NCBI GenBank assembly: GCA_002840155.1
Contig: PGZH01000010.1
Coordinates: 1 to 64,000, forward strand
Length of the DNA: 64,000 nucleotides
Reading direction: 5' to 3'
Source of the DNA: Gammaproteobacteria bacterium HGW-Gammaproteobacteria-13
GTDB lineage: Bacteria; Pseudomonadota; Gammaproteobacteria; Pseudomonadales; Pseudomonadaceae
The notes under the pieces: generated by a model
The model's database searches: none
Seen by the model: the letters and a program-made list of their open reading frames with translations, nothing else
What the model was told of the DNA's origin: nothing
Program-made: the position numbers and the translations under genes
Part shown: positions 17,904-54,637 of the stretch, in pieces
Position numbering within the stretch: the stretch's first letter is position 1
Layout: every line of letters begins with the position of its first letter

Positions 17904-18704
17904 TTATTCAGCGGCCCACTTGGGCGCGCGTTTCTGTACAAACGCCATGGTGCCTTCGATGCCTTCGGCGCCAGTAACGGCAGCGGCGAACTGCTCGGCG
18001 GCGCGGTCCAGGAGTGGGCCGAGGGCTTCGTGTTCGGCGGCCAGCAGCAGGGCCTTGGTCTGGGCATTGGCCTGCGGTGCGCATTGGCGTACCTGGCTGA
18101 GTATTTGTTGCAAGCGCACGTTGAGGTGTTCGCTGTCGACCTCACTGAAATGCACCAGACCAAGGCGTTCGGCTTCGCTGCCGTTAAAGCGGGCGGCGGT
18201 TAGGGCCAGGCGGCGGGTCTGGGTCAGGCCGATACGCTTGACCACGAAAGGGGCTATTTGCGCTGGCAGAATGCCCAAGGTGGTTTCCGGCAGGCCGAAC
18301 TTGGCGTCCTGCTGGCAGATGGCGATATCCGATACGCAGGCCAGGCCGAAGCCGCCGCCCAGCACGGCGCCTTCGAGCACGGCGATCAGCACCTGTGGCG
18401 TGTTCTGCGCTTCTTCCAGCAAGCTGCCGAAGGCGCGGTTAAGGCTGCGGTAGGCGTCGCCACCAGCTGCACGAGCACCGGCCATATCCTTGATATCGCC
18501 ACCGGCGCAGAAGTGCCCGCCGGCGCCGCGCAGGACGACGGCGCGTACGCTCAGATCATTACGCAGGCTTTCCAGCACAGCGCGCAGCTCCGTGACCATG
18601 GCCAGGCTCATGGCGTTGCGGCTGTCCGGGCGGTTAAGGGTGACGTGCAGCACGCCGGCATCGAGGCTTAGCAGCAGGGTTTCGCAGTTCGGTAGGTCGG
18701 CCAT
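17904..18704 (-). CDS. atuE: Isohexenylglutaconyl-CoA hydratase
   Basis: 266 residues of the crotonase superfamily. Oxyanion-hole regions are visible: GAGGHFCAGGDIKDM near residue 60 and EGAVLGGGFGLACVSDIAI near residue 110, with the acid/base glutamate in GLPETTLGILP. It hydrates the AtuCF product to 3-hydroxy-3-isohexenylglutaryl-CoA, which is then cleaved by a lyase encoded elsewhere (LiuE in P. aeruginosa). Its start is 201 bases after atuD, a gap filled by two repeat elements, so its expression may be uncoupled from atuABCD. Confidence 0.9.
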   Translation of the reverse strand: MADLPNCETLLLSLDAGVLHVTLNRPDSRNAMSLAMVTELRAVLESLRNDLSVRAVVLRGAGGHFCAGGDIKDMAGARAAGGDAYRSLNRAFGSLLEEAQNTPQVLIAVLEGAVLGGGFGLACVSDIAICQQDAKFGLPETTLGILPAQIAPFVVKRIGLTQTRRLALTAARFNGSEAERLGLVHFSEVDSEHLNVRLQQILSQVRQCAPQANAQTKALLLAAEHEALGPLLDRAAEQFAAAVTGAEGIEGTMAFVQKRAPKWAAE

Positions 18705-18741: not shown

Positions 18742-18815
18742 CGTAGGGTGGGTCACGTTTTATCGACCCACCGAGCGGTGCCACGGTGGACGTAAAAAGC
18801 GACGTCCACCCTACG
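18742..18815. repeat. GTAGGGTGG palindromic element
   Basis: Outer arms CGTAGGGTGG (18742-18751) and CCACCCTACG (18806-18815) enclose two smaller hairpins (GGGTCACG...CGACCC and GGTGGACGT...ACGTCCACC). The fold would be three-armed. The ends resemble the GTAGGATGGGT arms of the element at 52312. It lies between atuE and atuD. Confidence 0.8.
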
Positions 18816-18837
18816 TTTTTCCGTTCTTAGCCCTTCT

Positions 18838-18914
18838 TTATGGCCCGCCATCCCTGGCGGCCACCCTTCGGGCCGTCGCTACGCGACGTTAAAAATAGCT
18901 CCCGGCTATTTTTT
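18838..18914. repeat. Multi-hairpin repeat, copy A (atuD-atuE gap)
   Basis: Four consecutive stem-loops: CGCCA/TGGCG with loop TCCC; CCC/GGG with loop TTC; CGTCGC/GCGACG with loop TAC (18874-18888); and AAAAATAGC/GCTATTTTT with loop TCCCG (18891-18913). The last resembles an intrinsic terminator in both directions. Its right arm includes the atuD stop codon (18906-18908). Related copies are at 46771, 46840 and 47341. Confidence 0.85.
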
Positions 18915-20063
18915 CTTCCCCGGCAGAATGCCCATCAGCTTGCAGATAATGCCCAGCATGATTTCGTCGGCACCGCCGCCGATGCTCACCAGGCGCACGT
19001 CGCGGTAGGCGCGAGCCACCGGGTTTTCCCACATGTAGCCCATGCCGCCCCAGTACTGCAGGCAGCTGTCGGTGACTTCACGGCCGAGGCGGCCGGCCTT
19101 GAGCTTGGCCATCGAGGCAAGGTTGGTCACGTCGCGGCCGCGCACGTATTGCTCGGTGGCCTGATAAACCAGGGCGCGCAGGCACTCGACTTCGGTCTGC
19201 AGCTCGGCCATGCGGAAGTGGATAACCTGGTTGTCGATCAGCGCATTGCCGAAGGTCTTGCGCTCCTTGCAGTAGTCGATGGTGGCGTTGATGCAGTGCT
19301 CCAGGCCCTTGATCATGTTGGCCGCACCGAACAGGCGCTCTTCTTGGAACTGCAGCATCTGCATCATAAAACCGGCGCCTTCGTGGCCGATGCGGTAGCG
19401 CTGCGGCACGCGCACGTTGTCGAAGAACACCTGGGCGGTCTCCGAGCTGCGCATGCCGAGTTTGTCCAGGTGCGGGCTGACCGAAATGCCTGGAGTGTTC
19501 ATCGGCACCATGATCAGCGACTTGTTGACGTGCGGCTTGTCGTCCGAGGTATTGGCCAGCAGGCAGATAAAGTCGGCGCTTGGGGAGTTGGTGATCCACA
19601 TCTTGCTGCCGTTGATCACATAGTCGCTGCCGTCTTTCTTGGCGGTGGTTTTCAGCCCGGCCACATCGGAGCCGGCACCCACTTCGGATACGCCGATACA
19701 GCCGACCATCTCGCCAGTAATCGCCGGCTTGAGGAACTCTTCGCGCAGCTCATCAGAGCCGAAGCGCGCCAGGGCCGGGGTGCACATATCGGTCTGCACG
19801 CCGATGGACATCGGAATGCCACCGCAGATGATGGTGCCGAACTCTTCGGCGGCGACGATCGAGTAGCTGTAGTCCAGGCCCATGCCGCCGAATTTTTCCG
19901 GCTTGGAGATGCCCAGCAGGCCGAGGTCGCCGGCTTTCTTGAAAATATCGTGGATCGGGAAGCGGCCGTCCTTTTCCCACTGCTCGACGTGCGGGTTGAT
20001 TTCCTTATCGACAAAGTTACGGACCGTGCGGCGCAGCTCTTCGTGTTCTTGGGTGAAGATCAT
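18906..20063 (-). CDS. atuD: Citronellyl-CoA dehydrogenase
   Basis: 385 residues of the acyl-CoA dehydrogenase family. Flavin and substrate motifs are visible: GCIGVSEVGAGSD near residue 125, WITNSPSAD near residue 155, and QYWGGMGYMWENP near residue 340 with the candidate catalytic glutamate at 346. It oxidises citronellyl-CoA to geranyl-CoA, passing electrons to ETF (etfBA is also in this window). The gene is 18 bases downstream of atuC. Its last codons (GKKK, stop) lie inside the hairpin repeat. Confidence 0.92.
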   Translation of the reverse strand: MIFTQEHEELRRTVRNFVDKEINPHVEQWEKDGRFPIHDIFKKAGDLGLLGISKPEKFGGMGLDYSYSIVAAEEFGTIICGGIPMSIGVQTDMCTPALARFGSDELREEFLKPAITGEMVGCIGVSEVGAGSDVAGLKTTAKKDGSDYVINGSKMWITNSPSADFICLLANTSDDKPHVNKSLIMVPMNTPGISVSPHLDKLGMRSSETAQVFFDNVRVPQRYRIGHEGAGFMMQMLQFQEERLFGAANMIKGLEHCINATIDYCKERKTFGNALIDNQVIHFRMAELQTEVECLRALVYQATEQYVRGRDVTNLASMAKLKAGRLGREVTDSCLQYWGGMGYMWENPVARAYRDVRLVSIGGGADEIMLGIICKLMGILPGKKK

Positions 20064-45405: not shown

Positions 45406-46617
45406 TTACTGTTGGTAAGTCTTGAGGAAGCTGCCGATACGGCCGATGGCCATTTCCAGCTCATCCACCCGCGGCAAGGTGACCACGCGGAAGTGATCCG
45501 GCCACGGCCAGTTGAAGGCGGTGCCCTGAACGATCAGCAGTTTTTCCGAAAGCAGCAGATCCAGAACGAATTTCTCGTCGTTATGAATCGGACAGACTTT
45601 CGGGTCAATCTTCGGGAAAGCATACAGTGCGCCCATCGGCTTGACGCAGCTGACCCCGGGGATGTCGTTGAGCAGCTCCCAGGTACGGTTGCGCTGCTCC
45701 AGCAGGCGGCCTTGTGGCAGCACCAGGTCGTTGATGCTCTGGTAGCCGCCCAGCGCGGTTTGGATCGCATGCTGGCTCGGTACGTTGGCGCACAAACGCA
45801 TATTGGCCAGGATGTCGATGCCTTCGATATAGCTCTGCGCTCGGTGCTTGGGCCCGGAAATCGCTACCCAGCCGGAGCGGAAACCCGCCACGCGGTAGGA
45901 CTTCGACAGGCCGTTGAAGGTCAGGCAGAGCACGTCAGGAGCCAGGGATGCGGTGCAGATATGCACGGCATCGTCGTAGAGGATCTTGTCGTAGATTTCG
46001 TCGGAGAACAGCACCAGGTTGTGCTGACGCGCCAGTTCGACGATATCCAGCAGCACTTCTTTGGAATACACCGCGCCGGTGGGGTTATTCGGGTTGATCA
46101 GCACCAGGGCCTTGGTGTTCGGCGTGATTTTGGCGCGCATGTCGGCGATATCAGGGAACCAGCCGGCCTGCTCATCGCACAGGTAATGCACCGGTTTGCC
46201 GCCAGCCAGTGCTACGGAAGCGGTCCACAGCGGATAATCGGGTGCCGGGATCAACACTTCATCGCCGTTATTGAGCAGCGCCTGCATGGCCATCACGATC
46301 AGCTCGGACACGCCGTTGCCGAGGTAGATATCCTCGATGCCAACGCCTTCCACCTGCTTCTGCTGGTAGTACTGCATCACCGCCTTGCGCGCGCTGAACA
46401 GGCCCTTGGAGTCGCTGTAGCCCTGGGCGGTTGGCAGATTGCGGATTACGTCCTGGAGAATTTCCTCAGGTGCTTCGAAACCGAACGGTGCCGGGTTGCC
46501 GATGTTCAGCTTGAGGATGCGATGGCCTTCCTCTTCCAGGCGTTTGGCGTGCTTGAGCACCGGCCCGCGAATGTCGTAGCAGACGTTGGCGAGCTTGTTC
46601 GATTTGCTGAACTGCAT
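45406..46617 (-). CDS. alaA: Glutamate-pyruvate aminotransferase AlaA
   Basis: 403 residues, type I PLP aminotransferase. Recognisable features are NIGNPAPFGFEAPEEI at the start, NNPTGAVYS near 170, and the PLP lysine in FNGLSKSYRVAGFRSGW near 240. This matches E. coli AlaA, which makes alanine from pyruvate and glutamate. Synteny matches PA2828. It is the first gene of a probable three-gene operon and diverges from msrB. Confidence 0.92.
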   Translation of the reverse strand: MQFSKSNKLANVCYDIRGPVLKHAKRLEEEGHRILKLNIGNPAPFGFEAPEEILQDVIRNLPTAQGYSDSKGLFSARKAVMQYYQQKQVEGVGIEDIYLGNGVSELIVMAMQALLNNGDEVLIPAPDYPLWTASVALAGGKPVHYLCDEQAGWFPDIADMRAKITPNTKALVLINPNNPTGAVYSKEVLLDIVELARQHNLVLFSDEIYDKILYDDAVHICTASLAPDVLCLTFNGLSKSYRVAGFRSGWVAISGPKHRAQSYIEGIDILANMRLCANVPSQHAIQTALGGYQSINDLVLPQGRLLEQRNRTWELLNDIPGVSCVKPMGALYAFPKIDPKVCPIHNDEKFVLDLLLSEKLLIVQGTAFNWPWPDHFRVVTLPRVDELEMAIGRIGSFLKTYQQ

Positions 46618-46619
46618 GT

Positions 46620-46769
46620 AAATGATCCCGAATGGTGGAGCGCCGCTGAATTACCCTGCAAAAAGACGCGATCTGACGAGCCTTGGCAGGTTGTAACGCC
46701 GGTGACAGACTGGGGTCGAATGATACGTGGCAGCCCGACCTTGGCAAAGGTACTGGTCGGGCTTTTTTG
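46620..46769 (+). ncRNA. Candidate small RNA or attenuated leader upstream of msrB
   Basis: A strong intrinsic terminator, AGCCCGACC/GGTCGGGCT (46732-46740 and 46755-46763) plus six Ts, stands on the plus strand with no plus-strand gene before it. The nearest upstream gene, alaA, runs the other way. Something must be transcribed up to this point: either a small RNA or the msrB leader, attenuated. The 5' end is a guess, no clear promoter is visible, and the extent overlaps the alaA promoter region. Confidence 0.4.
46732..46769 (+). terminator. Intrinsic terminator without an upstream gene
   Basis: Nine-base-pair GC-rich stem, 14-base loop (TTGGCAAAGGTACT) and a TTTTTTGT tail. It is 140 bases before the msrB start. 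Confidence 0.85.
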
Positions 46770-46770
46770 T

Positions 46771-46836
46771 GCTCAGCACATCCATGTGCTTCACCCCTTC
46801 GGGGCTTGCGCGCAAAAACGCTCCCGGCGTTTTTGT
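46771..46836 (+). repeat. Multi-hairpin repeat, copy B1 (msrB leader)
   Basis: Order and loops match copies A and C, but the stems differ: AGCACA/TGTGCT with loop TCCA (46775-46790); CCCC/GGGG with loop TTC; the self-complementary TTGCGCGCAA; and CAAAAACGC/GCGTTTTTG with loop TCCCG (46813-46835). Confidence 0.75.
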
Positions 46837-46839
46837 GGT

Positions 46840-46888
46840 GTGCCATCCATCGCTGCGCGACGTTAAAAATCGCTCCCGGCGATTTTTT
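46840..46888 (+). repeat. Multi-hairpin repeat, copy B2, truncated (msrB leader)
   Basis: Follows B1 directly. It has half of the first hairpin (TGCCATCC), skips the middle, then TCGC/GCGA with loop TGC and AAAAATCGC/GCGATTTTT with loop TCCCG (46865-46887). Its T-tract ends seven bases before the msrB ribosome-binding site, so it lies in the msrB mRNA. Confidence 0.8.
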
Positions 46889-46908
46889 CACATAGAGGAG
46901 ACTTGCCT

Positions 46909-47304
46909 GTGGACAAGCTGGAAAAACCCCTGGAAGCCTGGCGCGAAGAGCTTTCTGAGGAGCAGTTTCACGTCTGCCGCCTGGGCGGCACCGAGCGCGC
47001 CTTTACCGGGCAGTATCACGACAGCAAGGTGCCGGGTATTTACCACTGCGCCTGCTGCCAGGCCGAGTTGTTCGACTCGGACGCCAAGTACGACTCCGGC
47101 AGCGGCTGGCCCAGTTACTTCCAGCCGGTCAGCAGCGAAGCCATCACCAGCCTGGATGACTTCAATCACGGCATGCACCGCATCGAAGTCAAATGCGCCA
47201 AGTGCGATGCTCACCTGGGGCATGTGTTCCCCGATGGGCCAGCGCCGACGGGTCTGCGTTATTGCATCAACTCGGCATCGCTCAAGCTGGTGCCGAAGGC
47301 TTAA
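46909..47304 (+). CDS. msrB: Peptide methionine-R-sulfoxide reductase MsrB
   Basis: 131 residues. Zinc is bound by two CxxC pairs (CACCQ near residue 46 and CAKCDAH near residue 95). The catalytic cysteine is in [11 protein letters not shown] near the C-terminus. It repairs methionine-R-sulfoxide in oxidised proteins using thioredoxin. The GTG at 46909 is eight bases from GAGGAG, whereas the TTG at 46903 is only two bases away, so GTG is preferred. It is followed by gpx and ospR, an oxidative-defence cluster, and flanked by hairpin repeats on both sides. Confidence 0.95.
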
Positions 47305-47314
47305 TGTCAGAGCA

Positions 47315-47340
47315 AAGGCCTGCTATCAGCAGGCCTTATT
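47315..47340 (+). terminator. Terminator after msrB
   Basis: Stem AAGGCCTGC/GCAGGCCTT (47315-47337) with loop TATCA, then ATTTTAT. The T-tract is interrupted, so strength is uncertain; the hairpin repeat behind it may add to termination. Confidence 0.7.
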
Positions 47341-47417
47341 TTATGGCCTGCCATCCCTGGCGGCCCCCTTTGGGCCGTCACTGCGTGACGTTAAAAATTG
47401 CTCCCGGCAATTTTTTC
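47341..47417 (+). repeat. Multi-hairpin repeat, copy C (msrB-gpx gap)
   Basis: Nearly identical in plan to copy A. The CGTCAC/GTGACG stem (47376-47390, loop TGC) and AAAAATTGC/GCAATTTTT stem (47393-47415, loop TCCCG) carry compensated base changes relative to A. It ends five bases before the gpx operator. Confidence 0.87.
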
Positions 47418-47421
47418 TCCT

Positions 47422-47447
47422 CAATTAAATTGCATACAATTTAATTG
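47422..47447. promoter_or_regulatory. OspR/OhrR-type operator at the gpx promoter
   Basis: Two perfect 11-base arms, CAATTAAATTG and CAATTTAATTG, separated by CATA. AT-rich palindromes of this type are bound by thiol-based MarR regulators of the OhrR group. The regulator gene ospR lies just downstream of gpx, and in P. aeruginosa OspR represses the gpx gene. The site covers the -35 element. Confidence 0.85.
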
Positions 47448-47458
47448 CTCGCTATCTT
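47430..47458 (+). promoter_or_regulatory. gpx-ospR promoter
   Basis: TTGCAT (47430-47435) and TATCTT (47453-47458) are exactly 17 bases apart, with the -35 inside the operator. Confidence 0.6.
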
Positions 47459-47489
47459 GCGTCCATTCCCACTTATCAGGATGACCAGC

Positions 47490-47975
47490 ATGAGCAACGC
47501 ACTCTTCGATATTCCGGTTACCACCATCAAGGGCGAGCAGAAGACCCTGGCCGATTTCGGCGGCAAGGCGGTGCTGGTGGTCAACACCGCCAGCAAGTGC
47601 GGCTTTACCCCGCAGTACAAGGGTCTGGAAAACGTCTGGCAACAGTACAAGGACCAGGGCCTGGTGGTGTTGGGCTTCCCCTGCAACCAGTTTGGCAAGC
47701 AGGAGCCGGGCGATGAGGGTGCGATCAGCGAGTTCTGCGAGCTGAACTTCGGCGTGAGCTTCCCGCTGTTCAAGAAGGTCGATGTGAACGGCAGCGATGC
47801 CCACCCGCTGTTCGTCAACCTGAAGAAGAGTGCGCCAGGCCTGCTCGGCAGCCAGGGCATCAAATGGAACTTCACCAAGTTTCTGCTCAGTGCCGACGGC
47901 ACGGTGATCAAGCGTTTTGCCCCGACCACCAAGCCTGAAGACCTGACTGCAGAGATCGAAGCGCTGCTGAAATGA
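47490..47975 (+). CDS. gpx: Glutathione peroxidase-family thiol peroxidase
   Basis: 161 residues. The peroxidatic residue is a cysteine in NTASKCGFTPQY (residue about 36), with the partner motifs GFPCNQFGKQEPG and WNFTKFLL completing the active site. It is a non-selenium enzyme and probably uses thioredoxin. I start at the ATG at 47490 because it gives the family N-terminus; an in-frame ATG three codons upstream sits too close to the AGGA box. It overlaps ospR by four bases and has the operator in its promoter. Confidence 0.94.
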   Translation: MSNALFDIPVTTIKGEQKTLADFGGKAVLVVNTASKCGFTPQYKGLENVWQQYKDQGLVVLGFPCNQFGKQEPGDEGAISEFCELNFGVSFPLFKKVDVNGSDAHPLFVNLKKSAPGLLGSQGIKWNFTKFLLSADGTVIKRFAPTTKPEDLTAEIEALLK

Positions 47976-54191: not shown

Positions 54192-54267
54192 GTCCCCTTC
54201 GTCTAGTGGCCTAGGACACCGCCCTTTCACGGCGGTAACAGGGGTTCGAGTCCCCTAGGGGACGCCA
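54192..54267 (+). tRNA. tRNA-Glu (TTC), copy 1
   Basis: 76 bases with the CCA end encoded. Acceptor GTCCCCT pairs with AGGGGAC. The anticodon loop CTTTCAC gives TTC, and the T-loop is GGTTCGAGTCC. It is identical to copy 2 at 54425. Confidence 0.97.
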
Positions 54268-54305
54268 CTTCTTAATGAAGTGTGCTGCAAAAAACCAAGT
54301 TGTAT

Positions 54306-54381
<76 letters not shown>

Positions 54382-54424
54382 AATTCAGGTGATCTGCTCA
54401 AGCAGGTGGCCGACAAGCTCCAAG

Positions 54425-54500
54425 GTCCCCTTCGTCTAGTGGCCTAGGACACCGCCCTTTCACGGCGGTAACAGGGGTTCGAGTCCCCTAGGGGACGCCA
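54425..54500 (+). tRNA. tRNA-Glu (TTC), copy 2
   Basis: Same 76-base sequence as copy 1. It follows tRNA-Gly copy 1 after 43 bases. Confidence 0.97.
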
Positions 54501-54522
54501 TTTTTGTTGTACCAAGTTGTAT

Positions 54523-54598
<76 letters not shown>

Positions 54599-54600
54599 AA

Positions 54601-54637
54601 TAAAAAAAAACGCCGCTCACTGAGCGGCGTTTTTGTT
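54601..54637. terminator. Terminator of the tRNA operon
   Basis: Stem CGCCGCTC/GAGCGGCG (54611-54629) preceded by a run of nine As and followed by TTTTTGTTT. Confidence 0.92.

Follow-up and report, generated by a model that had tools for sequence, protein, structure and literature searches.

The window, i.e., the whole 64-kb stretch of DNA that was analysed, carries four related short repeats, all of them situated on the plus strand (Table 1), the sequence-only reading having placed them on the same strand. One lies between an enoyl-CoA hydratase and an acyl-CoA dehydrogenase gene and, judged from the ORF ends, is antisense to both; the others are associated with msrB, where the order in the leader is native terminator, subtype II element, and truncated type I element. 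Of the four copies originally counted, two are complete and one is truncated, while 46769-46834 turned out to be a relative belonging to a second subtype. The proposed location of one copy inside an atu operon is plausible, its neighbours being a hydratase and a dehydrogenase gene beside carboxylase-type subunits; the hydratase scored 177 bits with the gamma-carboxygeranoyl-CoA hydratase model (cut-off 426).

Architecture of the Element and Its Copies

Reading and folding of the two complete copies revealed four consecutive hairpins, H1 to H4, which define the type I element. H1 (GGCCNGCCA-TCCC-TGGCGGCC) carries TCC in its loop and is followed by H2 (CCC-NNN-GGG), H3 (CGTCGC-NNN-GCGACG, with CGTCAC/GTGACG in the copy 47343-47416), and H4 (AAAAATNGC-TCCCG-GCNATTTTT). 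The element begins with ATGGCC and ends with GGCNATTTTTT, and its G+C content ranges from 0.44 to 0.65 (119 matches). Three motifs are nearly constant, TCC in the loop of H1, CCC/GGG in the stem of H2, and CTCCCG in H4. The folds of the complete copies exceed dinucleotide shuffles in stability by 4.1 and 3.2 standard deviations; for the truncated copy alone the difference is 1.6 standard deviations, and 16 of 200 shuffles fold at least equally well.

Contrary to the sequence-only reading, the order of stem-loops is not the same in all copies. In case of 46835-46888, an internal deletion took the 3' arm of H1 and the entire H2, leaving H3 and H4 intact, and 46769-46834 lacks H3 and consists of a TCC-loop hairpin, a CCCCTTCGGGG hairpin, and the terminal hairpin AAAAACGC-TCCCG-GCGTTTTT. 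The latter copy is weakly scored by both covariance models described below (R1, E 5.5e-5; R2, 39.3 bits, E 9e-6) and was not reported by the covariance model search limited to the window.

Table 1. Elements, terminators, and flanking genes in the window (CM, covariance model).
Feature	Position	Strand	Remarks
Enoyl-CoA hydratase gene	17904-18704	-	One flank of the copy 18840-18914
Complete type I element	18840-18914	+	75 nt, H1-H2-H3-H4; CM match 18835-18914, 104.8 bits, E 4.9e-23
Acyl-CoA dehydrogenase gene	18906-20063	-	Other flank; stop codon within the copy 18840-18914
Native terminator hairpin and T-run, msrB leader	46733-46768	+	GCCCGACC...GGTCGGGCTTTTTT
Subtype II element	46769-46834	+	66 nt, without H3
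Truncated type I element	46835-46888	+	CM match 46830-46888, 52.6 bits, E 9.4e-11
Native msrB terminator	47315-47337	+	Terminator scan
Complete type I element	47343-47416	+	74 nt, directly behind the msrB terminator; CM match 47338-47416, 94.9 bits, E 1.1e-20

The element is open in one frame with 25 residues per unit, and its reverse frame extends a neighbouring ORF (loci L163, 15-680, and L255, 1345-2382). No significant Pfam or NCBIfam match was obtained for a tandem ORF through the element, and such frames probably give rise to annotated proteins that are spurious or too long.

Distribution and Covariation of the Repeat Family

Within the window, short patterns of the element show no excess: GCTCCCGGC was found 4 times with 1.9 expected, a number reached by 9 of 100 shuffles, and TGCCATCCCTGGC with two mismatches was found 3 times compared to 4.0 expected. 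What carries the case is therefore the longer structure, together with the count over the whole genome. In the window's own genome, 21 matches to the core pattern GCTCCCGGCNNTTTT were found, compared to 0 for its reversed control, and 4 of these 21 matches represent subtype II. Two covariance models were used, R1, built from 18 copies that all derive from the window's own genome, and R2, built from 90 matches in loci of several genera. With R1, 57 places were identified in this genome at E<=1e-4 and 61 at E<=0.1.

Beyond this genome, the copy number is patchy. In the genus, 31 of 199 sampled genomes had an R1 match under stricter filters and at E<=0.01. For G027, a member of the same genus, nothing better than E 0.59 was obtained. 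With R2 at E<=1e-4, matches were observed in 131 of 369 genomes and 106 of 272 genera of the class, and in 70 of 398 genomes of the phylum (own genome included at all three levels). The H3-H4 core pattern was found in at least 109 stretches of genome contigs. Among the matches listed, its carriers are Pseudomonas (and Stutzerimonas), Alcanivorax/Alloalcanivorax, Marinobacter, and MAGs, and furthermore Brenneria, Samsonia, Pectobacterium, Klebsiella, Kluyvera, and Citrobacter; a single record labelled Chryseobacterium may be mislabelled or contaminated. For 26 of 29 loci of the class, the element is present in the printed stretch; all 26 contain the CCC-loop-GGG and C/T-TCC motif by pattern, and, except for L321 and L323, TCC in the H1 loop is recognisable by eye (24 of 26).

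Viral contigs contained 0 stretches for three element patterns, and the sole match in a phage collection proved to be a piece of Salmonella chromosome. On plasmids, the Pseudomonas form was not found, and the enterobacterial form occurs in 16 records, three of which are small (5.4, 6.5, and 9.1 kb). In Rfam 15, nothing exceeded the gathering threshold at the window elements or in eight related loci; a permissive search of 46700-47500 produced overlaps far below threshold with RF02902 (19.8/39.8 bits), RF02144 (19/56 bits), and RF02069 (15.1/40 bits). No description of the element was found in the open-access literature searched, and six literal element strings of 18-27 bases had no match in open-access papers. 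Neither Rfam nor the open-access papers searched thus provided the counter-argument named in the sequence-only reading, a match to an already known REP or terminator family.

The paired changes quoted in that reading are present in the sequence. Among the 18 copies of the own genome, 8 of 26 proposed pairs are changed on both sides, a number that none of 500 shuffles attained, and when the structure is shifted by 1-3 columns, 0 or 1 such pairs result; the number of further pair types, 16 compared to 15.2 in shuffles, shows no excess. For a phylogenetically informed test, 216 full-length copies were reduced to 155 by dropping near-identical ones and aligned by MAFFT without structure information. 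The test re-implements the idea of R-scape and is not R-scape itself (G-test with APC, Fitch-based null, FastTree tree). Restricted to the 26 pairs of the structure drawn from the 18 own copies, with 200 simulations, it identified 4 of 26 pairs at E<=0.05 (6-20, 57-69, 58-68, and 59-67) and one more at 0.06, and 11 of the 26 top-scoring column pairs belong to the structure. Pair 58-68 of the terminal stem, for example, reads TA in 54, CG in 42, GC in 40, and AT in 8 of the 155 copies. With all 2628 column pairs and 20 simulations, one pair is clearly significant (58-68, E 0) and a second stands at 0.05 (57-69); 59-67 gave 0.5, and 1-51, which lies outside the structure, 0.2. Being almost invariant, the outer A-T pairs of H4 are uninformative, and most other pairs are too conserved to argue either way. 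Pairing is thus kept while stem bases change, in agreement with the earlier claim, although covariation among paralogues could also result from template switching inside palindromes.

Insertion Sites, Empty Sites, and Arrays

The two native terminators of Table 1 are presumably the insertion targets of the copies behind them. Comparison of msrB comprised 29 other loci, from 53 other genomes with a match. In the leader, the element is absent in 28 of 29 other loci, with a decayed copy in L198, and the position behind msrB is occupied in 0 of 27 other readable loci (both rechecked with R2). The leader T-run itself (at least 5 T following G/C) was recognised in 29 of 30 loci, the exception being L207. 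In four carriers (L084, L096, L114, and L130), a longer type I copy is located directly behind the same leader terminator, which suggests that subtype II entered between the terminator and a type I element. Similarly, 18 of 19 other genus loci are empty at the atu-like site, including L229 of G014, which has the neighbouring repeat doublet; in L228 an apparent short 3' remnant was noticed by eye, without an R2 score.

Junctions were compared for 204 copies, non-redundant by upstream flank, of which 43 directly follow another element. A T precedes the element at position -2 in 199, at -3 in 191, and at -4 in 182 of the 204 copies. A loose terminator test was positive in 112 of 204 copies, compared to a shuffle mean of 68 and to 604 of 1500 control T-runs; since its control was too high, it was replaced by a strict one. 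By the latter, a hairpin with T-run is situated directly upstream of 44 of the 161 single copies, compared to 0.72 on average over 50 shuffles (maximum 4) and, for other T-runs taken from the same loci, to 146 of 3511 T4 and 89 of 1243 T5+ runs.

In more distantly related genomes, the element splits other sequences. A tRNA T-arm split as GGGATT|element|TCGAACC was found, using one strict pattern, in 8 of 29 class, 4 of 25 phylum, and 0 of 29 genus loci, and more T-arm insertions were noted in the class loci by eye than by this pattern. In G963, 11 of 11 fetched copies lie inside ACTTTTG...CAAAAGT palindromes; no uninterrupted palindrome of this kind was found in the same stretches. Target-site duplication is not required at the atu-like, tRNA, or 5S sites; in general, T-runs in the flank and at the element end could mask a few duplicated T. 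No inverted match between the element ends, i.e., no terminal inverted repeat, was recognised by eye. Tandem copies spaced 75 nt occur at several places and could also stem from duplication instead of insertion. Four H4-type hairpins in a row, 75-76 nt apart, were observed as a longer tandem array in Brenneria alni (G225, genome of locus L149; contig C2, 29270-29514).

In E. coli, a copy antisense to the rRNA is located downstream of the 5S gene in all 4 records opened. It lies between the two rrn terminators, as seen by sequence in 3 records and by a model match at the same place in the fourth; in rrnB of MG1655 (4171838-4171915, between T1 and T2) R1 gives E 3.4e-17. Matches are present in 3914 of 5426 E. 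coli genomes with a median of 2 places per genome, 7889 of 7917 places are chromosomal, and in 3941 of 3942 records the best place has an identity of 95% or more. In locus L193, the element is flanked by sequence matching the 3' end of 5S DNA (left TTTGATGCCTGGCAGTT, right CCTACTC, 7 nt), and the E. coli arrangement GGCAGTT[element]CCTACTC looks as if the element had split a partial copy of 5S. Segments of rrnB T1-T2 are common in laboratory expression plasmids. In the open-access literature searched, no work describing the rrn T1-T2 spacer as a mobile repeat was found.

Proposed Mobilisation and Alternative Explanations

The sequence-only reading took the paired changes to suggest that the structure is selected and not just that of a decayed transposon. 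A mobile element is instead indicated by the empty sites, the tandem arrays, the defined junctions, and the patchy copy number, and the pairing can persist if, as we infer, mobilisation needs the fold. On the basis of the compared sequences, the element is quite probably a non-autonomous mobile element of approximately 75 bp with four hairpins, and its fold would be kept mainly for mobilisation. The 5' end adjoins T-rich sequence, which in Pseudomonas is a T-run, often behind a terminator hairpin, and elsewhere is ATT or GTT within tRNA T-arms and 5S DNA. As the 3' end is again a hairpin with a T-run or TTTG, each insertion would recreate a target-like site, and arrays of head-to-tail copies are observed, with a period of close to 75 bp. 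The folded strand would be recognised by an enzyme provided in trans, by way of TCC in the H1 loop, CCC/GGG in H2, and CTCCCG in H4, with the other stem bases free to drift in pairs, and termination at H4 would be at most a side effect. Among 1716 crude ORFs from flanks of approximately 0.5-8 kb, visual inspection of the 25 most recurrent families, based on locus lists and first residues, revealed neither a transposase nor a reverse transcriptase nor a parent autonomous element with the same ends; these families seem to represent orthologous loci, common gene families, or ORFs crossing the element.

With respect to the enzyme, a single-stranded DNA element moved by an HUH/Y1 transposase of the IS200/IS605 or RAYT type, with a T-rich target and subterminal hairpins, would agree with the dispensable target duplication, with hairpins near both ends and a similar short motif at both junctions, and with the two Y1 transposase genes of the own genome. 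We nevertheless consider it unlikely, given that the Y1 gene examined is RAYT-like and flanked by its own, different repeats, read as ordinary REPs, and that the element carries no GTAG tag. Its orientation relative to replication is ambiguous as well: in six complete genomes, 49 of 80 copies are co-directional at E<=1e-3 (p 0.03 against even odds), but this lies within a 60% gene bias (p 0.46), and at E<=1e-6, 38 copies are co-directional and 29 opposed (p 0.16). An apparent bias in G014 alone (11 versus 3 on the replication strand at E<=1e-6) is less marked over the six genomes, and lagging-strand transposition, though possible, is not supported. RNA-templated, SINE-like spread, in which a short transcript with a U-run primes reverse transcription at terminator T-runs, would explain why Pseudomonas copies mostly end with TTTTTT, are joined to T-runs, and have a fixed orientation to them. 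Many distant members, however, have TTTG(T) at their end and adjoin ATT or GTT, and the lack of a reverse transcriptase among the recurrent neighbour families judged by eye likewise makes this route very improbable.

A role in transcription was weighed against mobility, since the final T-rich stem had been taken for a terminator. This is doubtful, as the T-run pairs with an A-run and the G-C core comprises 2-3 pairs, so that the G-C rich stem and unpaired T-run of a canonical intrinsic terminator are not found in H4. A simple scan of 46600-47500 reported one terminator-like site (1.0 expected), the native one at 47315-47337, and passed over H4, but since it also missed the native terminator 46733-46768, it is weak evidence on H4. 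From its predicted pairing, H4 would be a poor canonical terminator, with weak or bidirectional termination being possible. Gene orientation, based on crude ORF calls, was classified for 145 of 226 copies, leaving out 69 inside predicted ORFs and 12 at their edges, and is near random (the four arrangements comprise 42, 37, 37, and 29 copies), so that no shared role as a cis-acting RNA is supported. Together with the position of the msrB leader copies behind a native terminator and one antisense copy, this leaves a general terminator or leader RNA role unsupported. Selection of the element as a (bidirectional) terminator or insulator that is spread by recombination, with stems covarying for termination, would fit the A-run and T-run of H4, the terminators upstream of single copies, the E. 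coli member between T1 and T2, and a mild excess of convergent gaps (26% versus 18% in the control) with a deficit of divergent ones (20% versus 29%). It appears rather improbable, however, because a terminator is often already present upstream, H1-H3 would be superfluous, and many distant members end with TTTG without a T-run, in addition to the paired T-run and the near-random orientation. CsrA/RsmA sites present a GGA motif in a hairpin loop, and on the reverse strand the loops of H1 and H4 carry GGA in positions that are nearly constant, so that a decoy or target for an RNA-binding regulator is conceivable. As the GGA strand is sense to the rRNA at rrn but antisense at msrB, and no common transcript is evident from the gene orientation, hardly any weight is given to this explanation.

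The element looks like a large family of tiny mobile elements whose closest described analogue is the pneumococcal SPRITE, from which it is set apart by its described features. In PMC3049150, SPRITE is described as one 18-bp duplex with a U-rich tract, 28% G+C, present in pneumococcus and S. mitis; common to both are a short interspersed repeat, a terminator-like hairpin, AAAA/TTTT ends, an excess between convergent genes, and the lack of a known matching IS. In contrast to SPRITE as portrayed there, the element has four short hairpins, a G+C content of 0.44-0.65, a phylum-wide occurrence, and observed empty sites. With the REP sequences of the GTAG and CGTC super-families, for which PMC3733652 gives one stem of 5-13 bp, an unpaired tag, and mostly head-to-head pairs, it shares palindromic intergenic repeats in Pseudomonas and enterobacteria and a variable copy number. 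It differs from this description by four stems, head-to-tail arrays, the T-run junction, and the absence of an unpaired tag; in the alignment of 18 own copies, CGTC is paired inside H3. According to the review PMC10969869, MITEs (e.g., RUP, BOX, Correia, and QMITE) are likewise small, non-autonomous, structured, and intergenic. Unlike MITEs so characterised, the element is without terminal inverted repeats, a proven target-site duplication, or a parent IS that was found.

The rrn T1-T2 spacer member is peculiar in being fixed beside rRNA genes in reverse orientation. Group IIC introns insert beside hairpin and T-run terminators, and integron cassette arrays grow at a 3' hairpin site (attC). 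By analogy, the element may be likened to the former for its terminator-side insertion and to the latter for arrays at a 3' hairpin, but its 75 nt are too short for a ribozyme, and integrase core sites were not recognised in it by eye. A stem-loop survey (PMC2267715) set aside clusters within rRNA precursors, which may be one reason why the element was missed in E. coli; in the passages of PMC1590033 consulted, nothing on the element was found.

Regarding the wider family, we lean slightly towards a superfamily of mobile elements of 65-80 bp with three to four hairpins that extends through the Pseudomonadota, joins T-rich positions within or next to a hairpin (terminators, tRNA T-arms, 5S DNA, and palindromes), and includes the E. 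coli rrn T1-T2 spacer. If true, a class of tiny mobile elements, widespread but hidden at terminators and rRNA/tRNA borders, has escaped notice, and the structured rrn T1-T2 sequence gains an origin. Compensatory changes may then arise under selection on a mobile hairpin and not on a gene-regulatory RNA, and which enzyme moves the element, on single-stranded DNA or on RNA, becomes the question.

Further features of the window are mentioned as separate observations. The msrB leader 46700-46768 (GGTGACAGACTGG...ATACGTG, followed by the hairpin and T-run) is recognisable in most of the 29 other Pseudomonas loci and is a candidate attenuator or leader RNA of msrB. A repeat doublet at 18742-18816 adjoins the copy at 18840; among the matches listed, this stretch occurs in the genus genomes G001, G008, G012, G013, G014, G027, and G028, and it is probably an ordinary REP-like pair. 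At 54192-54601, two tRNA genes are duplicated as a pair, with copies that are 99-100% identical.
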